A stretch of 64,000 nucleotides of DNA from Pseudomaricurvus alkylphenolicus. GTDB taxonomy: Bacteria; Pseudomonadota; Gammaproteobacteria; Pseudomonadales; Cellvibrionaceae. The notes beneath the pieces were generated by a model. It did not search any database, was not told where the DNA came from, and was given only the letters and a program-made list of their open reading frames with translations. Positions within the stretch are counted from its first letter, which is position 1, and each line of letters begins with the position of its first letter. The position numbers and the translations under genes were made by a program. Below, piece after piece: positions 809 through 42,077 of the stretch. Where the stretch lies: assembly GCF_011683955.1 (NCBI RefSeq), contig NZ_JAAQPI010000007.1:248001-312000 (forward strand). The letters are read 5' to 3'.

Positions 809-3556
809 TCAGTCGAAAATGGACAGTTCCTGCAGACGTCTGACCGCCTGAGTGCGGCGGCTGACGCCGAGCTTGGCGTAGGCGGACTGGAGATGGGTTT
901 TGACCGTGTTGATAGAAACGTGCAACCGATCGGATATTTCTTTGTTGGAACAACCGGTCACCAGCAACTCCAGGGTTGCCAACTCACGCTTGGTCAGGGA
1001 TTCGACCATCAGGCCATCGACTGGAATTTTGTCCGGGGCCGATAACCCTTGAGAGGATTGTGGTTTAAAAGCCTTGTCTTGCTCGAGAATACGTTGAATT
1101 TGTCGTTGCCAAAGCAAATGTTGTTCTTCACCCGTGGTCTGCTGCAGCTCTGTAAGCAAGGCCTGCAGCTCCTGCAACACAACGTCGCCCTCTTCCCGAA
1201 ATAACTGGATGACACTGTTTTCGGTATCCAGCGCCAATGCCTGGGTCAATGCTTCATGAGCCGATGGTTGTTGACCCTGCAATGCGTAGCCCTTGGCCAG
1301 CAGTATCAGAACCTCCATCGCCCTAATATTGCGCCCATGTTCCAGAAACTGCGTCAGCAAGGCTTTCAGTAAGACGGCGGCGCGGTTGATATCTCGCTCT
1401 GCAATCGCCAGACGCGCTTCAGTCATGGCTTCCCACTCGTCCCCCTGACGAGTCAGGATCTGGTGGGCGCGGGGTTTGGGTGCCTGCGTTTGCTTCCACT
1501 GCCGGTAAAACGTTTGCGCCTGTTGTATTTCTCCAAGCGCGAGATATGAACGCACCCGCTCATGCATGACACAAGCCAGTAGTCGTTGCCAGCCTCTCTG
1601 CTCACCGACCTGCTGGGCTTCCTGTAAATAGGTGAGAGCTTCGTCAGTTCGCCGCAGATACAGCAGCATGCGTACGCTGGTGCGCAATACCACCACCATC
1701 AGGTCAGGGCTGGCATTATGGCGCTGGGCATCCAAGCCGTGTTCAAACAGGGGTTCGGCGACGCTGAGATCCCCCTGATAGTAGCGCATCACGGCCAACA
1801 GAGGTTCCATCAGCATAACCACTCGCGAATGTGTGCCAACCAGCGCTGTCAGGCGCTTGATTTCGCCGCTGAGATGAGTGTCAGCCTTAAGAAGATGTGC
1901 GCGGGTAAAGCTCAATAGCGCCGATAAACAGGCCGCATAGGCTTGCGAATAGGCCAGGTCGGCGTCCGCATCGTAATCGCGCATCCAACCAATTTCCGCT
2001 TCCGCCTCGGGATATTCAAGCGCGTTGAAATGTTGATAGGCTTTAATGGTTTTGAGCGTGGCCTTTATGTATACGCGTGATTCGGGCGCACGTGGCAACC
2101 AAACATCAATCAGTTTTCGCGCCGCCGTGTAGTCATCGGTAATAAAGTGCAGCATCACCTCAATGGTATAAACCTCAACAAGACGCTCTTGGGGAAGCTC
2201 TTCCTCTGAGCGATGCAAACGCGCCAGTAACTGTCGGGCTTCTGCCAGTTGATTGTTGAGGGAGTTGAGCCAGGCCATTTGAATCCAGATTTCACGACTC
2301 TGTTCCGTCAGTTCCGGCGGTAAACGTTTGAACAGGCTGAACATCAATGAGAAATGACCACAGGCCGTCAGGTGTATACCGTAATCCTCCAGCAGCTCCA
2401 GCGCACGACTGGCTTCACCGGCACTGAGCGCATGTTGAATGGCATCGCCGCCCAGCCCTTCGGTTTCGAACCAGTGGCTGGCACGCCGATGCAGGTCCGC
2501 CAGGTCTTGGCGATAGCGCCGCTGCAACAGTCTCAGGCAGTAGCCTCGGAACAGCGGATGCAGACGATACCAGCCATTTTCTCCCCCCAGGCGCTGCAAC
2601 AGATAGCGCGCCTCGCACAAAGCCTGCAGTTGTTCTCCCGTATCAGCCTCGCCGGTGATTGCCTGGCAAAGCGGTGCGCATAAACGCTCTACAATGGATG
2701 ACCGTATCAGCAGCCGCGCCTGTGGCTCCGGCATTTGACTGATAACCTCCTCGGCAAAAAAGTCGGTCACTGAATCCTGGTGCCCGAGGGACGCGGTCAG
2801 GAACTCCTGGGGATCACTGACGCTTTTGACAGAGAGTGTCGCCAGCTGCATAACCGCCGCCCAGCCCTCAGTACTGCCGTGCAACAGGTCAATGTCACTG
2901 TCCGACAGTTGCAGAGCATTGGTGTCCCGGATAAGAGCCCCGGCTTCCTCCCGATCAAATCGCAAGTCGTCCCGATCCAGGCTGACCAACCGGTTGTTGG
3001 CTCGTAGTTTCGCTAGGGCAAACGGCAGCGGATTTCGCGAACCGATCACCAGAGTGAAATGGGGCGGCATGTGCTTGAGTAAGAAAGCCAGTGTATTGTG
3101 GATGGATTCCTGCTCAATCACATGATAGTCATCCAGAAACAGCACCATGGGGCGCTCTGATCGCGCCATGGCCTGCAACACGGCTGAAATAAAGTGTTTT
3201 CCCTGTCTATCTCCCTCCAGACTCAGGCAATCTTCCGCCAGGCTTTGAGCAATATCCGGATGCAGTGTGTGGAAAGCTGCAGCGGCATAGTAGTAAAACT
3301 GTGCCTCTTCGTTGTCGTCCTCGTCCAGCGTCAGCCAGCTGACCGCTTGACCCGCCTCTTGCAACTGCCGATGGCATTGGGCCAATAGAGTGGACTTGCC
3401 ATAGCCCGCGGGAGCCGATACCGCCAACAATGCTCCCCCCAGCTGCGCTCCCTCCACCAGCCTTTGCTGCAGACGGACACGCTCCAGGGTGCCAGCGGAC
3501 AGCGTTGGCGGTATCAAACGGGTGGTAATCAACGGTACAGGCGAGATGAACGGCAT
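809..3556 (-). CDS. LuxR family transcriptional regulator, MalT/LAL type
   Basis: The 915-aa protein has the large-ATPase LuxR (LAL) layout seen in MalT and AlkS. A Walker A motif (APAGYGKST, residues about 48-56) and a Walker B-like stretch (LFLDDYH, about 140) start an N-terminal STAND ATPase. A long TPR-like helical middle follows, then a C-terminal LuxR helix-turn-helix from about residue 850, containing LTKRELATLELL and SNKEISDRLHVSINTVKTHL. Such proteins bind an effector plus ATP, oligomerise and activate transcription. It is divergent from a TonB-dependent receptor and upstream of an acyl-CoA dehydrogenase on its own strand, which are its likely targets. The effector is unknown. The start has no strong ribosome site. 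Confidence 0.88.
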   Translation of the reverse strand: MPFISPVPLITTRLIPPTLSAGTLERVRLQQRLVEGAQLGGALLAVSAPAGYGKSTLLAQCHRQLQEAGQAVSWLTLDEDDNEEAQFYYYAAAAFHTLHPDIAQSLAEDCLSLEGDRQGKHFISAVLQAMARSERPMVLFLDDYHVIEQESIHNTLAFLLKHMPPHFTLVIGSRNPLPFALAKLRANNRLVSLDRDDLRFDREEAGALIRDTNALQLSDSDIDLLHGSTEGWAAVMQLATLSVKSVSDPQEFLTASLGHQDSVTDFFAEEVISQMPEPQARLLIRSSIVERLCAPLCQAITGEADTGEQLQALCEARYLLQRLGGENGWYRLHPLFRGYCLRLLQRRYRQDLADLHRRASHWFETEGLGGDAIQHALSAGEASRALELLEDYGIHLTACGHFSLMFSLFKRLPPELTEQSREIWIQMAWLNSLNNQLAEARQLLARLHRSEEELPQERLVEVYTIEVMLHFITDDYTAARKLIDVWLPRAPESRVYIKATLKTIKAYQHFNALEYPEAEAEIGWMRDYDADADLAYSQAYAACLSALLSFTRAHLLKADTHLSGEIKRLTALVGTHSRVVMLMEPLLAVMRYYQGDLSVAEPLFEHGLDAQRHNASPDLMVVVLRTSVRMLLYLRRTDEALTYLQEAQQVGEQRGWQRLLACVMHERVRSYLALGEIQQAQTFYRQWKQTQAPKPRAHQILTRQGDEWEAMTEARLAIAERDINRAAVLLKALLTQFLEHGRNIRAMEVLILLAKGYALQGQQPSAHEALTQALALDTENSVIQLFREEGDVVLQELQALLTELQQTTGEEQHLLWQRQIQRILEQDKAFKPQSSQGLSAPDKIPVDGLMVESLTKRELATLELLVTGCSNKEISDRLHVSINTVKTHLQSAYAKLGVSRRTQAVRRLQELSIFD

Positions 3557-3875
3557 GAAGTGTGTGTCAGGTCCCTGTTCAACAGATCAATCACTAATCC
3601 GGACTATAGACAAGGTACCCTTGCCCAGCCTCACCCAAAAGTATGACCCAAATCTCTGAACTCTGCGCGAAATCCCCCTCGGCAACAAGTTTTCTTTATA
3701 TTTCAATCAGTTACAAATCAAAGCAGGAGCCGGTGTGTACGCTGGGAAATCGATGCCGGGCGCGACTAAAATATCGTAATAACGGGTGAGGTGATGGCCA
3801 GCGGGAATCGATAGCCTAATCAAACGATGAGCTAACGATACAGCCAGCCAATAACAAGCCTTACAGGAGAGACCC
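3557..3875. other. 319-bp divergent intergenic region
   Basis: This stretch separates the LAL-type regulator from the TonB receptor gene and must hold the promoters of both. It is AT-rich around 3690-3720. I found no clear sigma-70 promoter, no convincing inverted or direct repeat, and no small coding sequence. The receptor has a good ribosome site (CAGGAGAGACCC) just before its ATG. Confidence 0.5.
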
Positions 3876-6224
3876 ATGCAACGTTCACTACTCTGTGTTG
3901 CGATTGCCACAGCCGCCTTTTCACCCATCAGCCATGCGTTGGACGACGGACTAATGCTGGAAGAGGTGATTGTCACCGCTCAAAAACGCGCCGAAAGCAT
4001 CCAGGATGTACCTCTGTCAGTTACTGCCATGAGCGGCGAAAAGATCGAAAAGTCTGGCATTTCTGATCTGTCTGAGCTGTCGGCCTATGTACCCAATCTG
4101 AATATCGCCGAGGGCACTGTTAGCACCAATATCTATATGCGCGGTATGGGCTCCGGCATTAACCGGGCCTTTGAGCAGTCCGTGGGGATGTTTATCGACG
4201 GCATTTACATGGGGCGCGGCCGTCAGTTTCGCTCACCCTTTCTCGATCTGGAACGGGCGGAAGTGCTTCGCGGCCCCCAGGGCATTCTGTTCGGCAAGAA
4301 CACCATTGCCGGCACACTCAACCTGACCACCGCCAAGCCCGAAGTGGGGGAAGTGCTCAATGGCCAGGTAAGCCTCGAATACGAACCCGAATACAACACT
4401 CAAGTCATCAGTGGTTACGTTACTGGCAGCCTTAATGATGAATTTGCCCTGCGCCTGGCAATTAAGGACAGCCGCTCCGATGGCTATATCGAAAACACAC
4501 GGGTGGACCGCGATGGGCCTGAGACGGAAGAACAGATTGCTCGCCTCACTTTTACCTGGGAGCCCAGTGACGAGCTGAAGTTTACCGGCAAACTGGAAAG
4601 AGATGAATTTGAAAGCCTGGGCACCAGTGTTCAGGTCACTCATTTTGACCCGCTGGATCCACTGGCGGGCTTTATGGCCAGTGTTATCCCCACTCTCGAC
4701 CCCAACTTTGAGACCCGCGCGGATCACCGTAAATCCAGCGACGACGAGCTGGCAGACGATTCCCGTTGGACACAGGTGGACAACGCGGTGGTTACCATTG
4801 AATACGCTCTGGGCGAGCACACTCTGACATTGGTCAGCGGTTATTCCGCCTATGAGTCTTCTGATCGTCAGGAAGTGGATTTTGGTCCTGTGCCCTTCCT
4901 GGCCACCAATGATGATCACGACTACACCCAGTGGAGCCAGGAAATTCGCCTGACTTCTCCTGGCGGTGAGACTTTTGACTATATCACCGGCATCTATTGG
5001 CAGGGCAGCGACTTCCAGGCCGACTTTTGGTCTGATGTGGATATCGCCACCATCAATCCGGTTCTGCAGGCGGTTTACGGTAGCACCGGCGCTGTGGACC
5101 CCACTCAAGCGGTTGGCCCCGGTAATCCCAGCCTGAGCGATGTCGGGCTGGCACCCACACCCTTCTCGCGGGATACCGCGTTCGAGCAGGATGTGGAGAC
5201 ACTGTCGGCATTCTTTCAGGGTACCTGGTCGATCACCGAAAATGTGCGTTTGATTGGCGGTGTTCGCTATACCCATGAAACCAAAGAAGCCACTCGCCGC
5301 TCTGCCATTACCCGGTTTCAGGATTTGAATACTCCCGCCGGCATGCAGGAAGTGGTCATGGCCACGGCCCTGAAGGTCAATGTGACCCTGCCGCAATTCG
5401 AAGGTAAACGCACCGAGAAACAATTCACCCCCTCGCTCAAGCTGCAGTGGGATGTAAACGAGGACGTAATGGTCTATGCCTCGGCTGAAAAAGGTTTCAA
5501 GGGAGGCGGCTTTAACGCCAATCCGGACGCCACGCTGGAAAATCAGGAGTTTGAAGAAGAGAGTGCGCTGGGACTGGAAGTGGGTCTGAAATCGACGCTG
5601 CTGGACGGCCGGGCCCAGCTCAATGCCGCCCTGTTCCGTACCAACTACGAAGACCTGCAAGTCACCACCTGGAATGGTTTTGGGTTTGAAGTGGGTAATG
5701 CGGCGGAGTCCGTCACCCAGGGTGTCGAACTGGACGGTATGATCCGTCTCACCGAGGGCCTGACGCTGGGCGGCGCCATCGCCTATCTGGATGCCTATTA
5801 CGAGAACTTTGACACCGCACCCTGCCCGGCGACCACGATTGCAGCCGGTACCTCCGTGTGTGATTTGTCGGACCAACCCACCACCTATGCCCCCGAGTGG
5901 TCCGGCAGCCTCTACGCTGACTACTTCACGCCCCTGGGCGACAAGCTGGAGTTGCGGGCTGGTCTGGATATCAACTACTCCAGCGAATTCTATTATGACT
6001 CGGATCTGGACCAGCACACCCGCCAGGACAGCTTTTACAAGCTCAATGCCCGTCTGGCCATCGCCGATATTGATGATCGCTGGGAGGTCGCCTTGGTGGG
6101 CAAAAACCTGAACGATGAGAGCACGATATCCTACGGCCTGGACATGCCATTGGTGGCCGGCGGTATTGTGGGATATGTGGAAGCCCCGAGAGAAATTTCA
6201 ATTCAGCTCAAGGCCTCATTTTAA
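3876..6224 (+). CDS. TonB-dependent outer-membrane receptor 1
   Basis: The 782-aa protein starts with a signal peptide (cleavage expected after about residue 21, SHA). A TonB-box-like segment (LEEVIVTAQKRAES) follows, then a plug domain with the usual LRGPQGILFGKNTIAG motif (about residues 130-145), and a 22-strand barrel that ends in Phe. These receptors use TonB-ExbBD energy to import large or scarce substrates across the outer membrane. It is closely related to the receptor at 52125-54608: the plug segments align almost residue for residue. The divergent MalT-type regulator is its probable controller. The absence of siderophore genes and the lipid-rich neighbourhood suggest an organic, perhaps hydrophobic, ligand; this is inference. 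Confidence 0.92.
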   Translation: MQRSLLCVAIATAAFSPISHALDDGLMLEEVIVTAQKRAESIQDVPLSVTAMSGEKIEKSGISDLSELSAYVPNLNIAEGTVSTNIYMRGMGSGINRAFEQSVGMFIDGIYMGRGRQFRSPFLDLERAEVLRGPQGILFGKNTIAGTLNLTTAKPEVGEVLNGQVSLEYEPEYNTQVISGYVTGSLNDEFALRLAIKDSRSDGYIENTRVDRDGPETEEQIARLTFTWEPSDELKFTGKLERDEFESLGTSVQVTHFDPLDPLAGFMASVIPTLDPNFETRADHRKSSDDELADDSRWTQVDNAVVTIEYALGEHTLTLVSGYSAYESSDRQEVDFGPVPFLATNDDHDYTQWSQEIRLTSPGGETFDYITGIYWQGSDFQADFWSDVDIATINPVLQAVYGSTGAVDPTQAVGPGNPSLSDVGLAPTPFSRDTAFEQDVETLSAFFQGTWSITENVRLIGGVRYTHETKEATRRSAITRFQDLNTPAGMQEVVMATALKVNVTLPQFEGKRTEKQFTPSLKLQWDVNEDVMVYASAEKGFKGGGFNANPDATLENQEFEEESALGLEVGLKSTLLDGRAQLNAALFRTNYEDLQVTTWNGFGFEVGNAAESVTQGVELDGMIRLTEGLTLGGAIAYLDAYYENFDTAPCPATTIAAGTSVCDLSDQPTTYAPEWSGSLYADYFTPLGDKLELRAGLDINYSSEFYYDSDLDQHTRQDSFYKLNARLAIADIDDRWEVALVGKNLNDESTISYGLDMPLVAGGIVGYVEAPREISIQLKASF

Positions 6225-34192: not shown

Positions 34193-35554
34193 CTATCGCT
34201 CAACGCTGGTAAGGCGATCGCCGTACAAATCGAGCAACTGATTAACCGAAAATTCCCCGCTGTTACCAAACTCCAAGGCCAAGTGACGCCTGAGATCCGC
34301 TTCCACATTTCGGTTGCGGGCGCCATCTCCCGCCAGGCTATAGGCGACCCAGTATTCAAACCGGTCTGAAGGAGAATCTGAACTGCGGGCGGCCAACAGG
34401 AAAGCCTCTCTGTGCTCCCGAACGGCTCCGCGTAAGATATCTGTAACGCGAGCACCGGCCTGCGCCTGTAACCGGTCGCGCAGAGTCTCATCGCTCAAAC
34501 GCACACTCGCTTTCGCCGGCAGCTCAATAGTAGGGTGGTGGCCGTGTTCAAAATCGGTGTGTTCCACCGCGACTTGATTCGATCTTTCCACATCATTGAG
34601 GAGATAAACCAGATCAGCCGTCAGGATTTGACTGAGCAAGGTAACATCGTAGCGATAGGTTGAGAAAAGATCCCGTTCAACCGTAGGTGCGGTATAAGAC
34701 AGGCGCTCGTAGTGATGCTCAAGATTGCGCTCGGCACGGCGGCAACGGCGTTGGTATTTATTGAGCTTTTTCTCACTATTGTTGAGCCTGTGTTGCAGCT
34801 CCGTCAGAGTCTCCCGCTGTTGTTCCAGCTGCGCTTCGTTACCTTCGAAATTGTCGAGTTCGGTCTGCGCCCGTTGCAGACGTCGCTCCAGTCGGCGATG
34901 ACGCTTGCGATGTTTGCGGTAGGTTTGCCGACTGTTATATACATCCGAGCGCAGATGTTCAATGTCGTCCTGAAGGTGGACAAAGTCAGGATTGGCAATG
35001 ACTTCCACCCCACTCAGATAATCTTGCTGACGGGTTTCGTCTGTGTAGGCGACGTTGCCGTTAAGGTTCTGTAGCGAAAACCGGTACTGATCTGCCGCGC
35101 CCGGGAGAACTTCCAGGCCGGCAACATGGTGGAAGCTATCGTCGAACAGCTCCGCATCGAACGCCTCAAAAGCAAGATCAACCTGAAGCCGATATTGTTG
35201 TTTAAGCTGGCTGTAGAGTTCGCGATAGCGCTCCAGTGAGGCTGAATCGCCACGTGCCTGTGCCAGCTTACCATAGAGCAACAGGGCTTTTCCCGGTTGA
35301 TGATTGTCGTAGGCGTGGTCAGCGGCCTGCTGCAGGTTTTGCAGCCACGCGTCCAGGTGATGCTTTGCCGCCCGGTATCCCATCTGGCTCTTGGCGTGGT
35401 CGGGCTTTTCCCTGAGCGCTTGATCATACTCTCGCAGCGCCAATTCATAGCGCCCCTGATGCAGGTGGTCCTGAGCACTGTCCACCAGGCGTTGGTGCGC
35501 GCAACCCGCCAGGGTGCCAAGGGCAATCATCACCAACACCAGCTTGCTCCACAT
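34193..35554 (-). CDS. lipoprotein with TPR-like repeats and coiled coil
   Basis: The 453-aa protein begins MWSKLVLVMIALGTLAGC, a lipoprotein signal with the cysteine at residue 18. TPR-like helices follow (HLHQGRYELALREYDQALRE), then a long charged coiled coil (about residues 180-280; RKHRKRHRRLERRLQRAQTE and LTELQHRLNNSEKKL) and a C-terminal alpha/beta region. I do not recognise a named family. An AGAGGA site 7 bases upstream fixes the ATG at 35554; a longer in-frame reading would cover the promoter region. It should sit in the outer or inner membrane facing the periplasm. It is divergent from the LexA-box operon. Confidence 0.75.
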   Translation of the reverse strand: MWSKLVLVMIALGTLAGCAHQRLVDSAQDHLHQGRYELALREYDQALREKPDHAKSQMGYRAAKHHLDAWLQNLQQAADHAYDNHQPGKALLLYGKLAQARGDSASLERYRELYSQLKQQYRLQVDLAFEAFDAELFDDSFHHVAGLEVLPGAADQYRFSLQNLNGNVAYTDETRQQDYLSGVEVIANPDFVHLQDDIEHLRSDVYNSRQTYRKHRKRHRRLERRLQRAQTELDNFEGNEAQLEQQRETLTELQHRLNNSEKKLNKYQRRCRRAERNLEHHYERLSYTAPTVERDLFSTYRYDVTLLSQILTADLVYLLNDVERSNQVAVEHTDFEHGHHPTIELPAKASVRLSDETLRDRLQAQAGARVTDILRGAVREHREAFLLAARSSDSPSDRFEYWVAYSLAGDGARNRNVEADLRRHLALEFGNSGEFSVNQLLDLYGDRLTSVER

Positions 35555-35670
35555 TGATCGATCCTCTCCCCAAAACGCATTTGTCATAGTGACATCGAAG
35601 CGAAGTATAGAAATTTCAATCTGAATCAGTACTGAATCGAACAAAGTCTTACAAAACTCTAACAACCTGA

Positions 35671-35690
35671 TACTGTACAAAACAACAGTA
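35671..35690 (+). promoter_or_regulatory. LexA-type SOS box
   Basis: The 20-mer TACTGTACAAAACAACAGTA matches the enterobacterial LexA operator (TACTG-N10-CAGTA; core CTGT-N8-ACAG). The dyad extends to 11 bp on each side (CCTGATACTGT at 35666-35676, ACAGTATCAGG at 35685-35695). It overlaps the -35 region of a promoter reading into the 58-aa gene at 35742 and is 116 bp upstream of the divergent lipoprotein gene. Confidence 0.8.
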
Positions 35691-35696
35691 TCAGGG

Positions 35697-35702
35697 TATA
35701 AA
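35697..35702 (+). promoter_or_regulatory. probable -10 element of the SOS-controlled operon
   Basis: TATAAA begins 6 bp after the LexA box and about 40 bp before the start codon at 35742. The hexamer 17 bp upstream (TGTACA) falls inside the box, so LexA binding would block RNA polymerase directly. Confidence 0.55.
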
Positions 35703-35741
35703 TAGCCACATCCTGTATTAGGCTTGCCAAGGAGGAAGTCA

Positions 35742-35918
35742 ATGCGCAATTTGCTGGTATTTGTTGTGCTGCTGGGCAGCTGCCTGGCCACAAGCCGCGG
35801 CTGGAGTTGGATTGGCGGCATCGGGATGATCGCTGTCATCTTCCTGCTGGCTTCCGCCGATAATATGGCGATCAATAAGTCCGACTCTGATCTTGCCTGC
35901 AGGGACGAGTGCCACTGA
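35742..35918 (+). CDS. 58-aa hydrophobic protein under a LexA box
   Basis: This short gene has an ideal ribosome site (AAGGAGGAAGTCA-ATG). It encodes 58 residues with two hydrophobic stretches (about 3-17 and 22-41; LLVFVVLLGSCLA and WIGGIGMIAVIFLLAS) and a polar tail with two cysteines. It is probably an inner-membrane protein. I know of no homologue. The LexA box 52 bp upstream suggests induction after DNA damage, as for small membrane proteins such as TisB or SidA-type division inhibitors; that parallel is based on size and control only. The next gene starts 3 bp after its stop. Confidence 0.7.
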   Translation: MRNLLVFVVLLGSCLATSRGWSWIGGIGMIAVIFLLASADNMAINKSDSDLACRDECH

Positions 35919-35921
35919 GTT

Positions 35922-36698
35922 ATGCCTTCGAACCGGCAGTTTTATCGCCGCAGTCCAATTGCGCGGCAGCAGCAGCGGGTGACCTTCGGCGATATTCGGC
36001 GCCGTTTCGATTTCCGCTCCGTCAGTATTGGCCGCTGGGTGACAGAGCCCGAACAGGAGCGCGCCGCCGGGCTCTTTTACGATGCCCTGGTGGACTTGAT
36101 GGCCATACTCCAGGGCCCTGAGAACCTGATCTCGCTGCGAAGCACCCTGTCGTTTCAATACGGCATTGGTGGCCGCCCCGGTATCTCCGCTCACTACGAT
36201 CTGTCACAGCGCAGTTTCTCACTGGCCAAGAACGCCGGACCCGGCAGTATCGCTCATGAGTGGTTTCACGCCCTGGATCATTACCTGGGTACCAAGGCCT
36301 TTAGTGATGCGCCCCAACAGATGTTTGCCTCGCAAGCCTGGCTCAAGGATGCAACCCCTGTCGCGCACCCACTCAACGATCTGCTGTTTAAATGCTTCCA
36401 GGCCATCATGCTGGATGAGGCGGGTGATCAGCCCAGCGAGCTGTTTCAGATATCCTCCCGGGTGGACCGAGACAACGGCATCGTTTATTACAGTCAGCCC
36501 GAAGAGCTGTGCGCCCGAGCCTTTGAAGCCTTTATCCAGGACGCAGCCATTCGCAATAATTTTCTGGTAAAAGGCACCAAGGAAAGCGAAGAAGCCAAAA
36601 TGGGGCTCTACCCTCAAGGCGAGCACCGAGCCCGGATTGCCACCGCCTTTAACCAGTACTTCGCTGCCTTGGGCGGCGCCCTTCGCAGAGGCGCGTAA
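35922..36698 (+). CDS. CLCA_X/LPD1-like protein with HExxH motif
   Basis: The 258-aa protein contains GSIAHEWFHALDHYLGTK, an HExxH zinc-metalloprotease motif (His112, Glu113, His116, with a further Asp119/His120). It is flanked by YGIGGRPGISAHYD and by a late YYSQPEELCARAFEAFI segment. This pattern is shared with LPD1-type domains of polyvalent proteins and with the poorly described CLCA_X family. Peptidase activity is inferred from the motif. It starts 3 bp after the 58-aa gene and has no clear ribosome site of its own, so it is probably translated by coupling and shares the LexA-controlled promoter. Its 3' end overlaps the convergent malonyl-CoA decarboxylase gene by 50 bp. Confidence 0.72.
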   Translation: MPSNRQFYRRSPIARQQQRVTFGDIRRRFDFRSVSIGRWVTEPEQERAAGLFYDALVDLMAILQGPENLISLRSTLSFQYGIGGRPGISAHYDLSQRSFSLAKNAGPGSIAHEWFHALDHYLGTKAFSDAPQQMFASQAWLKDATPVAHPLNDLLFKCFQAIMLDEAGDQPSELFQISSRVDRDNGIVYYSQPEELCARAFEAFIQDAAIRNNFLVKGTKESEEAKMGLYPQGEHRARIATAFNQYFAALGGALRRGA

Positions 36699-37971
36699 CC
36701 ACATCAGAGGCAGCCACCGTCCCCTGATTCACAAACTCCTCGTGGTTCTTTTCCACCGTCGGCAAGTCGTATTGATAGTTGACCAAAATGCCATAGGACT
36801 GAGCCAGGCCATTTTCTGACAGATCACCCTGCCAGTTAAGCCGCTCCAGTCGCGCACCGTTGCCTAAATGGAACCGGGCCACCGGATCTCTGGGTTGTTC
36901 AGCGCGTTTGGCCAGGCACAAATATTGTGCGCATAGGCGCATTAGCAGGCTCTGCATTTCTGACGATTGCTGGAGATACCATTGCGGATCGTTCAAGGCC
37001 TCAATTAGTGCTCTGTCGTCGGCGTTGATCAGAGGACTGGAGTCTTCCCCCAATTGCGCCCGCAGCCAGGTCCGGAACCCGGGAATGGGTGACAAGGTTG
37101 CGAACTGCTTGAGCTGGGGTAACTCCGCCTGAAGCTCCATCACCACCTGCTTGATCAGAAAGTTGCCAAAACTGATGCCTGTCAGGCCCTCCTGACAGTT
37201 GCTGATTGAGTAGAAAATGGCGGTGTCCACCTGATCGTCCAGTGGTCGTTCCGGGGCTTCCAATAGGGTTTGTACATTGTCTGCCAGGCCATTCACCAAC
37301 GCCACTTCCACAAAGATCAGGGGCTCTTCCGGCAGTGCCGGGTGGAAGAATGCAAAGCAGCGTCGATCACTGGCCAGACGCCGACGCAGGTCATCCCATC
37401 CGTCCATTTCATGCACCGCCTCATAGGCAATCAGCTTTTCCAGGATCAGAGCGGGCGTTTTCCAGTCGATGGCCTGCAAACTCAGGAATCCGCGATTAAA
37501 CCAGGAAGATAGCAAGTGCTTGAGGTCTTCATTGACCGGTTTGAAGGAGGCATCTTCTTTTAAGAGACCCAATAAATCCCGCCTCATCGCCACCAGCGTT
37601 GAGGTGCCTTCGGGGGCCATATTGATCCGCCGAAACAGATGCTGTCGCGGCGCCTCCAGCGCGCGGCTCAAGTCTGACAATGAAGCCGAATCGCGATTGA
37701 GCCGAAAACGTTCCGCGCTCTCAATGACACGATCCGCATTGACACTGTATTGCTCCAACAGCAGTTGAAAGAACTCGCGCTTTTGCTCCAAAGTCATCTG
37801 CTGGTAACGTTCAACCACCTGCCGGGCCAATGCCGTGCCCAGAGCTTCTCCTTTGCGGGAGTAGAGTTCCGAGCACAACTGCTTAAGTGATTTTTCAGGT
37901 TCCCGCTCTCGCCTGCGCAGCAGTTTGCTGCCGGCCTCTGCCACGGAATTCAGCCAAAGATTAAATCCCAT
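36649..37971 (-). CDS. malonyl-CoA decarboxylase
   Basis: The 440-aa protein is an MCD-family enzyme, converting malonyl-CoA to acetyl-CoA and CO2. Visible family marks are FFHPALPEEPLIFVEVAL, SNCQEGLTGISFGNFLIKQV, SPIPGF and the histidine region FHLGNGARLERLNW. Two starts are possible. The ATG at 37971 has GGAGG 15 bases upstream; an ATG at 38013 would overlap the MatB gene by 37 bp and has no ribosome site. It directly follows matB in the same operon, as in rhizobial mat operons, where the pair turns malonate into acetyl-CoA. Confidence 0.92.
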   Translation of the reverse strand: MGFNLWLNSVAEAGSKLLRRREREPEKSLKQLCSELYSRKGEALGTALARQVVERYQQMTLEQKREFFQLLLEQYSVNADRVIESAERFRLNRDSASLSDLSRALEAPRQHLFRRINMAPEGTSTLVAMRRDLLGLLKEDASFKPVNEDLKHLLSSWFNRGFLSLQAIDWKTPALILEKLIAYEAVHEMDGWDDLRRRLASDRRCFAFFHPALPEEPLIFVEVALVNGLADNVQTLLEAPERPLDDQVDTAIFYSISNCQEGLTGISFGNFLIKQVVMELQAELPQLKQFATLSPIPGFRTWLRAQLGEDSSPLINADDRALIEALNDPQWYLQQSSEMQSLLMRLCAQYLCLAKRAEQPRDPVARFHLGNGARLERLNWQGDLSENGLAQSYGILVNYQYDLPTVEKNHEEFVNQGTVAASDVVTRLCEGRRPRQRSTG

Positions 37972-37976
37972 AGTGA

Positions 37977-39509
37977 CTAGTGAGAACCTCCGGACAGACA
38001 GTCCGCGTAGCATTCGCGCAAAACGTTTTTCTGCACCTTGCCCATGGTATTGCGCGGAAGTTCATCCACATAAAAGACTTTTTTGGGGACTTTAAAGTTC
38101 GCCAGATTCTGTTTAACCGCATCAATTAACTGCGCGGGTTCTGCTGAGCATCCACTCTGCGGCACAACAACCGCAACCACCGCCTCACCAAAGTCAGCGT
38201 GGGCAACTCCAATAACCGCGCTTTCCGAAACTCCATCCAGATCATCGATAAAGGCCTCGATTTCCTTCGGGTACACATTCAGCCCGCCACTGATAATCAT
38301 GTCCTTGGCTCGGCCGACAATCGCCACATAGCCATCTTCGTCCACACGGCCTTTGTCCCCGGTATTGAAAAATCCGTCTTCCGTAAAATCCTCGGCGGTT
38401 TTCTCTGGCATACCCCAGTAGCCCTTAAATACGTTGCGCCCCCTGACTTGCAGATTGCCAATCTCACCTATCGGCAGAGGTTGATTCTGTACATCGGCAA
38501 TACGGACCTCTACACCCGGCAGTGGCAAGCCTACTGTCCCCGCCTTACGCTCACCTTCCAGGGGATTGCTGGTGTTCATATTGGTTTCGGTCATGCCATA
38601 GCGCTCAAGAATGGTATGGCCAGTGCGCTCGCGGAAGGCATTGAAGACTTCCACCAACAAAGGTGCAGAGCCGGAAATGGCCAATCGCAGCGAGCGGCAC
38701 TCTTCCCGACCGAACTGCGCTTCTTCCAGCAGTCGTGTGTAATAGGTCGGCACGCCCATCATCACTGTACAGTCAGGCAACGCCGCCATCACGGCTTTAC
38801 TGTTGAACGAGGGTAGCCAACGCATGCGCGCACCACTCATTAGTACACAGCCAAGGGCGACAAATAAGCCGTGAACATGGAATATAGGCAAGGCGTGAAG
38901 CAAGCAATCATCCGCACTAAACCCCCAGGCTTCGACCAGCGTTTGCGCGTTGGCTGCCAGGTTTTCGTGAGTCAACATAATACCTTTGGGGCGACCCGTG
39001 GTGCCGGAGGAATACAGCAGAGCCGCCAGATCATCCGCTGCCCGGGCTACGGTGTCAAAATCAGCGGGGTAATTGGCTGAGCGTTCGGTCAAACTGCCCT
39101 GGCCGTCGGCATCCAGCGTCAATACCGGAATGCCTTGCTCCGCCACCAACTCACTCATGGTGTTCTCAGCATCACTGCCGCAAACCACCAGCGAAGGCGC
39201 GGCATTGCTGAGGAAGTACTCCAACTCACTGCGCTGGTAAGCGCTGTTAAGTGGATGGAACACCAGACCGGCTCGCAAACACGCCAGATATAACCACAAC
39301 GCCGTCGGGCTCTTTGGCACCTGCACGGTAACGCGATCACCGGGCTTAAGGCCCAGGGAGACCATAAATCCGGCCAGGCGCGACGACTCCTGCTCCGCGT
39401 CACCATAGCAATAGATCACGCCTTCATCGGTCTCCATCAGAGGTTGGTTGAGGTCACTGGGAAAATGTTGCCGAAAACCGCTGTACAGATTGTGGTCCTG
39501 TTGCGTCAT
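37977..39509 (-). CDS. matB: malonate--CoA ligase (malonyl-CoA synthetase)
   Basis: The 510-aa adenylate-forming enzyme has SSGTTGRPKGIMLTHENL (ATP-binding loop), the malonyl-CoA-synthetase-type RYGMTETNMNTSNP motif (about residue 300), TGDKG and a C-terminal GKVQKNVLRE with the catalytic lysine. It activates malonate with CoA and ATP. GGCAGG precedes the ATG. It is divergent from an AraC regulator, and a TTGAC direct repeat lies 75 bp upstream of its start. The malonyl-CoA decarboxylase gene follows within 6 bp. Confidence 0.9.
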   Translation of the reverse strand: MTQQDHNLYSGFRQHFPSDLNQPLMETDEGVIYCYGDAEQESSRLAGFMVSLGLKPGDRVTVQVPKSPTALWLYLACLRAGLVFHPLNSAYQRSELEYFLSNAAPSLVVCGSDAENTMSELVAEQGIPVLTLDADGQGSLTERSANYPADFDTVARAADDLAALLYSSGTTGRPKGIMLTHENLAANAQTLVEAWGFSADDCLLHALPIFHVHGLFVALGCVLMSGARMRWLPSFNSKAVMAALPDCTVMMGVPTYYTRLLEEAQFGREECRSLRLAISGSAPLLVEVFNAFRERTGHTILERYGMTETNMNTSNPLEGERKAGTVGLPLPGVEVRIADVQNQPLPIGEIGNLQVRGRNVFKGYWGMPEKTAEDFTEDGFFNTGDKGRVDEDGYVAIVGRAKDMIISGGLNVYPKEIEAFIDDLDGVSESAVIGVAHADFGEAVVAVVVPQSGCSAEPAQLIDAVKQNLANFKVPKKVFYVDELPRNTMGKVQKNVLRECYADCLSGGSH

Positions 39510-39584
39510 GTCCTGCCTGCCCTTTGTTGATCAGTTATGCATTAAACAAAAGATGAGTATAGTTGCCCACCGGGGATTTGGGCT

Positions 39585-39616
39585 TTGACATTAGCGGTCA
39601 AGCTCTTGACGCGATA
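39585..39616 (+). promoter_or_regulatory. TTGAC direct-repeat operator upstream of matB
   Basis: TTGACA at 39585 and TTGACG at 39606 lie exactly 21 bp apart with GGTCA between them. The 32-bp element matches 45864-45895 (upstream of TonB receptor 2) at 23 of 32 positions, in the same orientation and at nearly the same distance from the start codon of a minus-strand gene (75 versus 69 bp). This is the architecture of AraC-family operators. The AraC gene at 39657 is the likely binder. Confidence 0.65.
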
Positions 39617-39656
39617 ACCGTTGACGCCCGGGGCGGGGCAAACATACACTGAGGAC

Positions 39657-40673
39657 ATGAAACTTTCACCCACACTCTCTTCTCGGCATGTCCTCTACGT
39701 CAGGGATCATCTGGTTGACCAGGGGGCTGATCCCAAGGCAGTCTTCCACAGTGCCGAACTGGATCTGGAGGCTCAGCTGGCACACAACACTCCCCTGCCG
39801 GTCGCCGACTTTGCACGGCTGCTGAGGGTCGGTGCAGCCGAGCTTAACGACGATTACTTTGGTATGCATGTCGCCCGCGGCTTCCATCATGAAAGCAGTG
39901 GCCTGATGATTTTGACCATTTTGTCGGCCCCCAGTGTGGAAGCGGGATTAAAGACTCTGGTTCGATATGACAAGTATATCGATCCCGGCATCGATACCCG
40001 CCTGGCCCTGAATCCCGATGGCTGTGAACTCTCGCTGACGCTGCTCGACCCGCTTAATACGGAACGCAGCCAACTCAATGAATACTTGATCACTCTACTG
40101 TTGCAACTGCTGAGAACCGCCACTCGCCTCGACATCAGTCCCAAAGAGGTACGACTGCAGCACGCTGCCACTCGCCCCAAAGGCGCCCTGGCCGATTTTT
40201 TTGATTCACCCATACACTTTAACTGTGAACGCAACGCGCTGGTGTTTGACAATGCCCTGCTAAAGGAAACCTTTGTCACTTCTCATCAGTTGCTCTACAG
40301 CTTGTTAACCAAGGCTCTGCAGAGCTATCTTTCCTCCACCGGAGAAGAACACGACTTTATCGATCTGGTGTGCCGGGAAATTATCAAGCAAACCGAAAAG
40401 GAAACACCCAATATCGAAACGGTGGCCAATAACCTGTCCATGTCGGTTCGCACACTGCGCCGTCATCTATCGGACGAAGGCTACAGTTTTCAGGATATCA
40501 AGCGGGTCGCGAAAGAGAATCAGGCAAAGTACTTCCTGACCCATACCAACATGGGCCAGGCAGAAATCGCCTATGAGTTGGGTTATTCCGAAGTCAGCGC
40601 ATTTTCACGCGCTTTTCGCTCCTGGACGGGAGAAACGCCGCAAGTCTATCGGGAAAAGCACACCTCAGAGTGA
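39657..40673 (+). CDS. AraC family regulator of the malonate-type cluster
   Basis: The 338-aa protein has an N-terminal arabinose-binding-like sensor domain (residues about 15-200) and a C-terminal AraC DNA-binding domain. The latter includes NIETVANNLSMSVRTLRRHLSDEGYSF and QAEIAYELGYSEVSAFSRAFRSWTG. It is divergent from matB, with the operator in between, and its end overlaps the convergent AtoE-type gene by 9 bp. I use the ATG at 39657; the GAGGA just before it is closer than usual. It probably activates matB-mcd, the receptor at 43653 and perhaps the amidase/carrier pair. Confidence 0.88.
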   Translation: MKLSPTLSSRHVLYVRDHLVDQGADPKAVFHSAELDLEAQLAHNTPLPVADFARLLRVGAAELNDDYFGMHVARGFHHESSGLMILTILSAPSVEAGLKTLVRYDKYIDPGIDTRLALNPDGCELSLTLLDPLNTERSQLNEYLITLLLQLLRTATRLDISPKEVRLQHAATRPKGALADFFDSPIHFNCERNALVFDNALLKETFVTSHQLLYSLLTKALQSYLSSTGEEHDFIDLVCREIIKQTEKETPNIETVANNLSMSVRTLRRHLSDEGYSFQDIKRVAKENQAKYFLTHTNMGQAEIAYELGYSEVSAFSRAFRSWTGETPQVYREKHTSE

Positions 40674-42077
40674 TGCAACCAGTAACAACCCGCCACCGAA
40701 AATAAAAAAGCAAAGCCCGAAGATGATAAACGTGTAACCCATAATGTGTTTGAGTTTCAGACCGGCGATGGCAAGCAACGGAATCATCGGCAGCGGCTGA
40801 ATCATATTGGACCACTGGTCGCCATAAGCAACACCCATCACCACCAGAGAAATGTCCACCTCCAGAGCTTTGGCCGCCTCTACAAATACCGGCCCCTGCA
40901 CCGCCCACTGTGCACCGCCGGAAGGAATAAAGATATTGACCACACCGGCGGATACGAACGCCCAAAACGGCAAGGTTACTTCTGTCGCCACGCTGGCGAA
41001 CCAGTCAGACAGTGTATTCACGAGCCCACTGTCCATCATCACCCCCATGATTCCGGCGTAAAAGGGGTACAGCAAAAGAATGGGGCCCACGGTGCGAGCG
41101 CCATCGGTGATAAGATCAATGTAGTGCTTGGCACTGTTGCATAGCAGTAACCCGGCGCACAACAGACTCCAGTTAACAACGTCCAGCGTCAGGCTGAAAC
41201 CGTTGCGGGTGAACCAGCTGATAAGGTAGGCACCGATCAATGCGGCCACCAGTAACGGTAAAACGCGAGTGTTCTCCAGCTTTGCTACCGGTCGATCGGT
41301 TGCAGGGTCGGCGCTTTCGGTTTGGGGTGACTCCGGGGAGGGCGTGTATTCAATCAAGCGATTTTTAGATGGGTGCATGCAGGCACAGATAATGGCGACT
41401 CCGGTGAGCGTCACCAATGCGATCAGCAGGTTCCAACCGGAGAATATTGTCTCCGTCACCGGTATCAGGCCGCCGATGGCGTCCTCCATTCCATTTCCGG
41501 GGGTGGCAACAAACAGCGCGGCACTGGATGAGTAGCCCATATGCCATATCACAAAGCCACCATAGGCACTCGCCACCAGCAGGGGATAATGCAACTTCAG
41601 CCCCCGCTCTGCACCACCGGCAGCGACGTTGCGAGCGATAATGGCCCCGGCGATTAAACCCAGGGGCCAGCAGATGTAGCTGAAGAGACCTGCGCACAGA
41701 ACGACCGTGACATAAGCGCGAAAGGCGGTGGTCGGTACTCTGCCAATATAATGCAGAAGTTGTTGGATCAACGCGGTATGAGCCAGGGCAAATGCGGCAA
41801 TCACCATAAACGCCATTTGCGAGCCGAAAGCTAACAGGGAAGACAGGGAATGTCCCCACGCGTCCAGAGCTTCCACGGGGGTGATCGCAGTGGTTCCCAA
41901 CACCAATGCCAGCGTGAGAAAGCTCAACAGAATCGTAAAGACAAACACGTCCGGGTAGTACTTTTCCACCAACACAACCAGCGGCGAGACAATTCTGTCA
42001 AGCAGACTGACGGATTCCTGCTCCCGGGATACTCCCGCGCTGTACGCCATGATGTTCTCGGTTTTGGTTTCTCTCAC
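40665..42077 (-). CDS. AtoE-type short-chain fatty acid transporter
   Basis: The 470-aa inner-membrane protein has about 12 hydrophobic segments and the features of the AtoE/short-chain fatty acid carrier family: VEKYYPDVFVFTILLSFLT, an HMGYSSSAALFVATPG block and a VNIFIPSGGAQWAVQGP block near the end. It probably brings in a small carboxylic acid. It begins at a GTG with AGGAA at good spacing; an internal ATG at 42050 is an alternative. It follows the amidase gene by 24 bp in the same operon, so its cargo may be malonate or the acid made by the amidase. Confidence 0.88.
   Translation of the reverse strand: MRETKTENIMAYSAGVSREQESVSLLDRIVSPLVVLVEKYYPDVFVFTILLSFLTLALVLGTTAITPVEALDAWGHSLSSLLAFGSQMAFMVIAAFALAHTALIQQLLHYIGRVPTTAFRAYVTVVLCAGLFSYICWPLGLIAGAIIARNVAAGGAERGLKLHYPLLVASAYGGFVIWHMGYSSSAALFVATPGNGMEDAIGGLIPVTETIFSGWNLLIALVTLTGVAIICACMHPSKNRLIEYTPSPESPQTESADPATDRPVAKLENTRVLPLLVAALIGAYLISWFTRNGFSLTLDVVNWSLLCAGLLLCNSAKHYIDLITDGARTVGPILLLYPFYAGIMGVMMDSGLVNTLSDWFASVATEVTLPFWAFVSAGVVNIFIPSGGAQWAVQGPVFVEAAKALEVDISLVVMGVAYGDQWSNMIQPLPMIPLLAIAGLKLKHIMGYTFIIFGLCFFIFGGGLLLVASL

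Follow-up and report, generated by a model that had tools for sequence, protein, structure and literature searches.

The locus considered here raises the question of what a putative metalloprotease gene is doing behind a box of the LexA type, and which of two closely spaced genes, one for a small hydrophobic protein and one for the protease, is the part that evolution has kept with that box. Within the window (the whole stretch of 64,000 nucleotides that was analysed), the features concerned are the following:

34193..35554, - strand: divergent gene for a coiled-coil/TPR-like lipoprotein (start assigned by reading)
35666..35695, no strand: LexA-type operator, an 11-bp perfect inverted repeat around 8 bp (dyad and pattern counts)
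35674-35679, + strand: -35-like hexamer TGTACA, four of six, inside the box (by eye, 17 bp upstream of TATAAA)
35697..35703, + strand: possible -10 element TATAAAT (by eye, TATAAA at 35697-35702; absent from the strict scan)
35730..35735, + strand: Shine-Dalgarno sequence AGGAGG of the 58-aa ORF (-11.4 kcal/mol)
35742..35918, + strand: 58-aa hydrophobic small protein (ORF, ribosome site, hexamer score)
35922..36698, + strand: clcaX, 258-aa CLCA_X putative zincin metalloprotease (family match, LPD1, motif)
36649..38013, - strand: convergent malonyl-CoA decarboxylase gene, context only (50-bp tail-to-tail overlap with clcaX)

The LexA-type box

The box consists of a left arm, CCTGATACTGT (35666-35676), and a right arm, ACAGTATCAGG (35685-35695), around the centre ACAAAACA, and its core at 35671-35690 is an exact TACTGT-N8-ACAGTA. 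The pattern TACTG-N10-CAGTA occurs once in the window against an expectation of 0.05, and TACTGT-N8-ACAGTA also occurs once, with none of 100 shuffled sequences containing any. Throughout the 8.88-Mb genome (70 contigs), the exact TACTGT-N8-ACAGTA is present at three sites: the box of the clcaX operon, a site before recA (TIGR02012, 565.9 bits versus a cut-off of 325.3), and a site before a umuD-like gene for an S24 peptidase (95.2 bits, under the cut-off of 110). The 12 arm bases of the window box are identical to those of the recA and umuD-like boxes. Thus, the near-consensus operator with 11-bp arms that an earlier note on this DNA had described is indeed a perfect dyad and one of only three exact sites in the genome. 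In addition, two CTGT-N8-ACAG boxes lie upstream of the genome's lexA gene (TIGR00498, 240.6 bits). Sites with one mismatch include those of imuA (NF033429) and of a PA0069-family radical SAM gene (NF033668), both over their cut-offs; no SOS gene was recognised beside the other four one-mismatch sites in the genome. Near-matches alone are not evidence, because there are 9 genome-wide with at most one mismatch and 18 for the reversed pattern.

The box had also been said to overlap a promoter. This part is less secure: a TATAAA can be found by eye with a four-of-six -35-like hexamer inside the box, but a strict sigma-70 scan of the region called no promoter on either strand, where shuffled sequences average 1.0. 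A further proposal, that the same box could control the divergent lipoprotein gene, is unsupported: apart from the nearness of the two, nothing points to it, the scan having called a promoter on neither strand, and the gene clusters with no other clcaX neighbours.

The dyad could have arisen by chance, or it could bind a different regulator, leaving the operon outside LexA control. Such an explanation would fit with the missing promoter call, with the lack of enrichment of near-matches genome-wide, and with the arms, which run beyond the LexA core, unlike those of nine other boxes compared. However, it is made highly improbable by the restriction of the exact sites to recA, the umuD-like gene and the clcaX operon, and by the boxes that accompany the same gene in relatives far above background (see below). 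LexA control is well supported because of the genome's own SOS boxes together with the boxes before the same gene or operon in relatives. Consequently, as judged from sequence, the window box is very probably a LexA operator through which LexA would control the clcaX operon.

The 58-aa protein

The first ORF behind the box has features expected of a gene. Its AGGAGG gives an anti-SD energy matched by only 0.4% of the 896 window ATGs, in keeping with the ideal ribosome site originally claimed for it, and its hexamer score is 0.518, a value exceeded by 4 of 139 small ORFs (clcaX, 0.646). The product is hydrophobic, as had also been claimed, with two hydrophobic segments, one at about residues 3-18 and the other at about 22-39. 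The ORF is probably a translated, lineage-specific gene. No convincing relative was found in 57 other genomes of relatives, in 189 clcaX-linked loci, or among plasmids, phages and viral contigs. The best match in the 57 genomes (E 4e-4, 44% over 32 aa, in a 45-aa frame) was rejected as a homologue, being judged noise from its gene neighbourhood. After the protein itself, the next match in the clcaX-linked loci has an E of 0.13; plasmids and phages gave zero matches at E up to 1, and of 28 pattern stretches in viral contigs, none was confirmed. The best family scores are E 0.12 (Pfam) and 0.47 (PHROGs), and NCBIfam and PADLOC gave no match.

The ATG of clcaX follows the TGA of this ORF by 3 bp, and its own ribosome site is ordinary (-4.8 kcal/mol, a value reached by 21% of window ATGs). 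This combination suggests that the translation of clcaX is coupled to that of the 58-aa ORF.

SidA and TisB, small LexA-controlled membrane proteins of other bacteria, act as division inhibitors or toxins. The 58-aa protein is likewise small, hydrophobic and situated behind a LexA-type box, and it might be the working SOS effector of the operon, a division inhibitor or membrane-active peptide like SidA or TisB, with clcaX either riding along or processing it. Its ribosome site, which is stronger than that of clcaX, its gene-like hexamers, its two hydrophobic segments and its first position behind the box would all be consistent with such a role. However, the protein differs from SidA and TisB in having two hydrophobic segments, no detected relatives and a protease gene 3 bp on. 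Furthermore, at the seven loci of relatives with a box directly before clcaX, the box lies only 47-67 nt from clcaX, so that there is no room for a 58-aa gene. A role as the sole division inhibitor is also weakened by the gene that follows lexA in the window genome, which is called only SulA-like because both of its scores are under the cut-offs (49.9 bits versus 150; Pfam SulA, 19.9 versus 23.1). An effector of this kind is thus very unlikely. A conserved pair of the 58-aa gene and clcaX has been rejected, given the lack of any convincing 58-aa relative and of room for the gene at the seven loci. The conserved SOS-linked element is the box with clcaX, not the 58-aa/clcaX pair; when the conservation of both was checked, as the earlier note had proposed, the box with clcaX proved to be kept in relatives, but the two-gene order did not, since no convincing relative of the 58-aa protein was found.

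CLCA_X as a putative zincin

The clcaX product matches the CLCA_X family (NF041907) at 363.6 bits (cut-off 260), its residues 7-254 corresponding to positions 1-249 of the 250 in the model. It has HEWFHALDH at residues 112-120 and a Pfam LPD1 match at residues 182-253, so that the CLCA_X/LPD1-like gene reported 3 bp after the small ORF has been verified. Ten positions listed here are invariant in 43 of 43 aligned CLCA_X proteins: H112, E113, H116, D119, H120, Y189, E195, A198, R199 and E202. The family was named, and a protease function predicted, in PMC3650047, the excerpt of which prints the active-site consensus as HExxHxxxD; all 43 aligned proteins, Marinobacter included, instead read HExxHxxDH, with the Asp one residue earlier than printed. 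As far as that excerpt goes, the founder of the family, Maqu_3852 of Marinobacter aquaeolei, resembles clcaX in being a solo protein of about 260 aa with an Asp close behind the HExxH.

The predicted structure (pLDDT 86.8, pTM 0.87) has the HExxH on a helix at 110-126 and E195 and E202 on a helix at 193-206. E195-L-C-A198, with E195 and A198 invariant in 43/43, fits the gluzincin glutamate-helix motif (E,H)xx(A,F,T,S,G) given in the excerpted text of PMC7213743. Judging from the model, LPD1 would be the second half of the peptidase fold and no separate module. CLCA_X is thus likely to be an active zincin, with zinc-dependent proteolysis its presumed activity. The protein is probably cytosolic, because its N-terminus, by reading, is not hydrophobic.

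The zincins ArdC, Spartan and IrrE, as presented in the same part of PMC7213743, share with clcaX an HExxH helix, a glutamate helix and a DNA-linked biology. However, searches of clcaX against Pfam and NCBIfam gave no ArdC, SprT, IrrE or DNA-binding family match; with E up to 1 allowed, LPD1 was the sole Pfam family reported, without any SprT-like match. No ssDNA-binding domain was found in clcaX, and other zincins lead the PDB lists. The PDB fold matches are weak: the best Foldseek E is 0.049, in a list led by exported peptidases rather than repair proteases, and VIA-align gives Z values of about 9 (an M34-type catalytic domain) and about 8 (PPEP peptidases). With Z about 9 at best and a Foldseek E of 0.049, this search gives the fold class only. 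Wss1 (E 0.19) and Deinococcus PprI/IrrE (rank 25, E 0.62) appear in the Foldseek list with weak scores; SprT/Spartan is not among the best 50 matches of either PDB fold list, an absence that excludes nothing. Only one match (E 0.13), and not a credible one, came from a profile search against PDB sequences.

The clear fold relatives of clcaX are phage polyvalent proteins, with E down to 5e-12 in the viral list, which also contains a phage SprT-like protein (E 0.07) and phage IrrE-like proteins (ranks 29 and 38). The excerpt of PMC5512222 describes LPD domains and phage metallopeptidases, among them a class in which an Asp follows the HExxH at a distance of three residues. The polyvalent metallopeptidases described there have the LPD1 C-terminus, the Asp spacing and the fold match in common with clcaX, but polyvalent proteins in that account are large and multidomain, of phage or conjugative origin, whereas clcaX encodes a chromosomal, solo protein of 258 aa.

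Distribution of clcaX and its boxes

CLCA_X is encoded in 4 of 58 genomes of relatives, in 53 of 144 genomes of the family (51 over the cut-off) and in 6 of 369 genomes drawn from the class (3 over the cut-off); these counts include the window's own genome. After removal of 25 duplicate proteins, 132 CLCA_X loci left 107 distinct ones. An exact CTGT-N8-ACAG is present between -320 and +20 in 9 of these 107, as against 0.49 predicted from the remaining sequence of those loci; the mirrored pattern is present in 0 of 107. The nine loci are those of the window, Aestuariicella hydrocarbonica, six Microbulbifer and Mangrovitalea. A. hydrocarbonica belongs to the window's genus (its protein is the same as that of genome G002) and has clcaX behind a box at -51. 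Among the 107 loci, no exact box was found at any from Halomonadaceae, Marinobacter, Amphritea, Zobellella, Oceanisphaera or Nitrincola, and two solo copies from the class search (L247 and L248) have no box upstream in the stretch available. A general SOS control of all CLCA_X genes has consequently been rejected, the exact boxes being limited to one clade plus Mangrovitalea.

A tree of the 107 proteins places the window protein as sister to a clade of 45 from Microbulbifer and A. hydrocarbonica (support of the 46, 96/81). The A. hydrocarbonica protein nests within the Microbulbifer clade, but its long branch and that of the window protein make the placement less sure. Genes around clcaX differ: lipoprotein and malonyl-CoA decarboxylase genes in the window, esterase-like and flavin-oxidoreductase-like genes (named by reading) in A. 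hydrocarbonica, and the operon described below in Microbulbifer. LexA-type boxes accompany clcaX in all three of these settings. LysR-like genes lie near some copies of clcaX. The direct boxes require 7 changes on the tree, and 8 of 500 shuffles give a number as low, which suggests that direct boxes come and go or that the fan1 promoter takes over control. Given all of these findings, it is strongly supported by sequence comparison that clcaX would be a previously unreported gene of the LexA regulon in the clade of the window genome and Microbulbifer.

The fan1-helicase-clcaX operon

Forty-four loci were assigned to Microbulbifer, 24 of whose proteins are identical, over the compared stretch, to those of named Microbulbifer loci. 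At 35 of the 44, clcaX lies at most 200 nt behind a gene for a Rad3/DinG-type helicase, and fan1 precedes the helicase gene in 34 of 34 loci with a visible start, one contig ending first. At one locus (L208), the helicase is a C-terminal fragment only. The operon genes were typed on one representative, L195, and recognised at the other loci by tblastn. FAN1_HTH and VRR_NUC were recognised in the L195 nuclease, which also matches PDB 5y7g, the structure of a FAN1 homologue, at 3e-82; Helicase_C_2 and DEAD_2 were recognised in the helicase, whose matches to the rad3, YoaA and DinG models are below their cut-offs.

At the 35 helicase-adjacent loci, an exact box stands before fan1 in 24 (at 46-129 nt) and before clcaX in 6 (at 47-67 nt), so that 28 have one before fan1 and/or clcaX; the remaining 7 have a one-mismatch box, before fan1 in six and before clcaX in one. 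The nine non-adjacent Microbulbifer loci have no exact box, and two have a one-mismatch box before clcaX. Seven of the 44 have no box, exact or one-mismatch, before clcaX, and their fan1 starts are not visible. A count over 50 loci (420,328 bases) placed 31 of 32 exact boxes within 200 nt before fan1 or clcaX, as compared with 1 occurrence of the mirrored pattern and 5.1 in shuffles anywhere, although the loci share ancestry and the counts are not independent. At five of the six non-Microbulbifer loci in this count, no box was found before clcaX or a visible fan1, with one mismatch allowed. The window genome has its fan1 elsewhere, with no adjoining helicase and no box within the roughly 145 upstream nt that are visible.

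A second association comes from Marinobacterium sediminicola (L081) and M. alkalitolerans (L104), in which fan1 and clcaX are head to head (2 of 56 named non-Microbulbifer loci). These pairs have no helicase and no box between the genes. Loose box-like matches at both loci sit inside fan1. The Marinobacterium FAN1 proteins are 31-34% identical to those of Microbulbifer (E about 1e-67), and the Marinobacterium CLCA_X proteins are far from Microbulbifer on the protein tree, which suggests a second, independent origin of the neighbourship. This independent-looking pairing argues for a functional connection with FAN1 that goes further than the inheritance of a single operon.

The pairing also bears on the possibility that CLCA_X is a domesticated phage or plasmid protease acting on phage or plasmid proteins, with its SOS link arising through prophage induction or conjugation. 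Outside the family, its strong relatives in fold and sequence are phage polyvalent proteins; most CLCA_X proteins are placed among mobile-element sequences in the excerpt of PMC3650047, and a further frame of the window genome, 2887 aa long, matches CLCA_X in part. The differing settings of clcaX would be compatible with mobility as well, as would the A. hydrocarbonica copy within Microbulbifer, with the uncertainty of its long branch. However, clcaX occupies a single place behind the helicase in those 35 of 44 Microbulbifer loci, and PADLOC, run on the window proteins, gives it no match. The Marinobacterium fan1 neighbours make this explanation less likely and an action in a FAN1 pathway more so; a phage- or plasmid-directed protease is accordingly considered unlikely.

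Another hypothesis is that CLCA_X is a LexA-controlled regulatory protease in the style of IrrE/ImmA, cleaving a specific repressor or regulator after damage. Its HExxH and glutamate helices and the presence of PprI/IrrE and phage IrrE-like proteins in the fold lists agree with this hypothesis, but the fold scores are weak, and in Microbulbifer it is repair enzymes that recur as neighbours. Furthermore, inspection of the neighbour clusters by eye revealed no repressor as a recurrent partner (a count that leaves out 7 of 84 loci, at which the gene caller missed clcaX). Such a regulatory role is thus distinctly unlikely.

A model for CLCA_X in the SOS response

Taken together, these results have led to a model for the clcaX operon. 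DNA damage would generate RecA filaments and LexA cleavage, releasing the promoter at the box. The short operon would then be expressed, with the 58-aa membrane ORF translated first and clcaX after it by coupling, to give a cytosolic single-domain zincin. This protease may act at damaged DNA, trimming covalently or tightly bound proteins or clearing a repair intermediate. The FAN1 nuclease and the helicase of Rad3/DinG type, encoded together with it in the LexA-boxed operon of Microbulbifer, may work in the same pathway.

A comparable pair of genes exists in P. aeruginosa, whose PA1044 is presumably FAN1. LexA regulates both PA1044 and PA1045 (DinG) according to the excerpt of PMC12796719, where the two gave no UV-C response. 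The likeness to Microbulbifer lies in a DinG-type helicase gene and its neighbour under LexA regulation, and in the fan1-helicase genes behind a LexA-type box; the difference is that the excerpt mentions no metalloprotease with PA1044-PA1045. FAN1 is a nuclease of interstrand-crosslink repair in the portion of PMC4103454 consulted.

The chance that a LexA-controlled clcaX operon yields a zincin acting at damaged DNA in a FAN1/helicase pathway is judged to be just short of even. The narrower claim, that CLCA_X acts on DNA-bound proteins in the FAN1 pathway and not on a regulator or a phage or plasmid protein, is put somewhere between a tentative proposal and that nearly even chance, and it is ranked first mainly because of the fan1 neighbourships. 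More tentative still is a LexA-controlled FAN1-helicase-protease module for crosslink repair, a reading held at about one chance in three. In such a module, CLCA_X would degrade proteins that are crosslinked to DNA or block it, as a functional counterpart of Spartan/Wss1 that derives from a zincin of the phage type, and FAN1 would cut and the helicase unwind the DNA at one and the same lesion; in the window genome, the protease would have a LexA operator to itself and, encoded in front of it, a 58-aa membrane protein as a new partner. It should be noted that outside the clade, a box is found at one locus only (Mangrovitalea) and fan1 at two.

The protein family itself was already known; what is new is the regulon member and the operon arrangement. 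No paper joining CLCA_X or LPD1 to LexA/SOS was among the best matches of a literature search, and the excerpt of PMC3650047 describes neither LexA/SOS control nor a FAN1 link for CLCA_X. If the model is correct, a family of proteases that has been met chiefly in phages and plasmids would now be part of the bacterial SOS response and tied to an interstrand-crosslink nuclease. CLCA_X would then be a candidate for a bacterial protease devoted to DNA-protein crosslinks, or else for a step of proteolysis that is new to the SOS response.

Surroundings of clcaX in the window

Between the start of the divergent lipoprotein gene (34193-35554, minus strand) and the LexA-type box upstream of clcaX, the window carries at 35620-35639 the sequence TGAATCAGTACTGAATC, a repeat built around the palindrome CAGTACTG; this repeat is not a LexA box. 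The lipoprotein itself gave a weak match (34.5 bits, cut-off 500) to TraC, a myxobacterial lipoprotein of outer-membrane exchange, a match that is probably driven by the coiled coil. On the minus strand at 36649-42077, a malonyl-CoA decarboxylase gene (assigned by Pfam) lies near acyl-CoA-ligase-like and short-chain-fatty-acid-transporter-like genes, the latter two named by reading, and the region is possibly a malonate locus.

Elsewhere in the same genome, a strong LexA-type box is found upstream of a PA0069-family radical SAM gene (L120, G000:C11:957253-957272). In addition, a 2887-aa open frame has a split, partial CLCA_X match (L035 and L036, G000:C7:105598-106839), such as is likewise carried by phage polyvalent proteins; this region may be a prophage or an integrated element.

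clcaX in other genera

The CLCA_X protein of Aestuariicella hydrocarbonica (L085/L034), of the window's genus, falls, on a long branch, within the Microbulbifer clade. Because of this nesting, horizontal transfer of the gene is suggested, either together with a LexA-type box or followed by gain of the box.

In four Marinobacter loci (L101, L111, L112, and L114), the genes two and three positions upstream of clcaX were named by reading as ribonucleotide-reductase-like subunits.

Association with fan1

Outside the Microbulbifer operon (fan1-helicase-clcaX), clcaX and the FAN1-type nuclease gene fan1 stand head-to-head in two Marinobacterium species, with no LexA-type box in the stretch between them at either locus:

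2277-3902, minus strand, fan1 of Marinobacterium sediminicola (L081), head-to-head with clcaX
2269-3888, minus strand, fan1 of Marinobacterium alkalitolerans (L104), head-to-head with clcaX

In Microbulbifer locus L208 (genome G141), whose protein is the same as that of L058 from Microbulbifer thermotolerans, the helicase gene between fan1 and the clcaX gene behind it is reduced to a C-terminal fragment. It looks as though most of the helicase had disappeared from a locus in which fan1 and clcaX remained neighbours.
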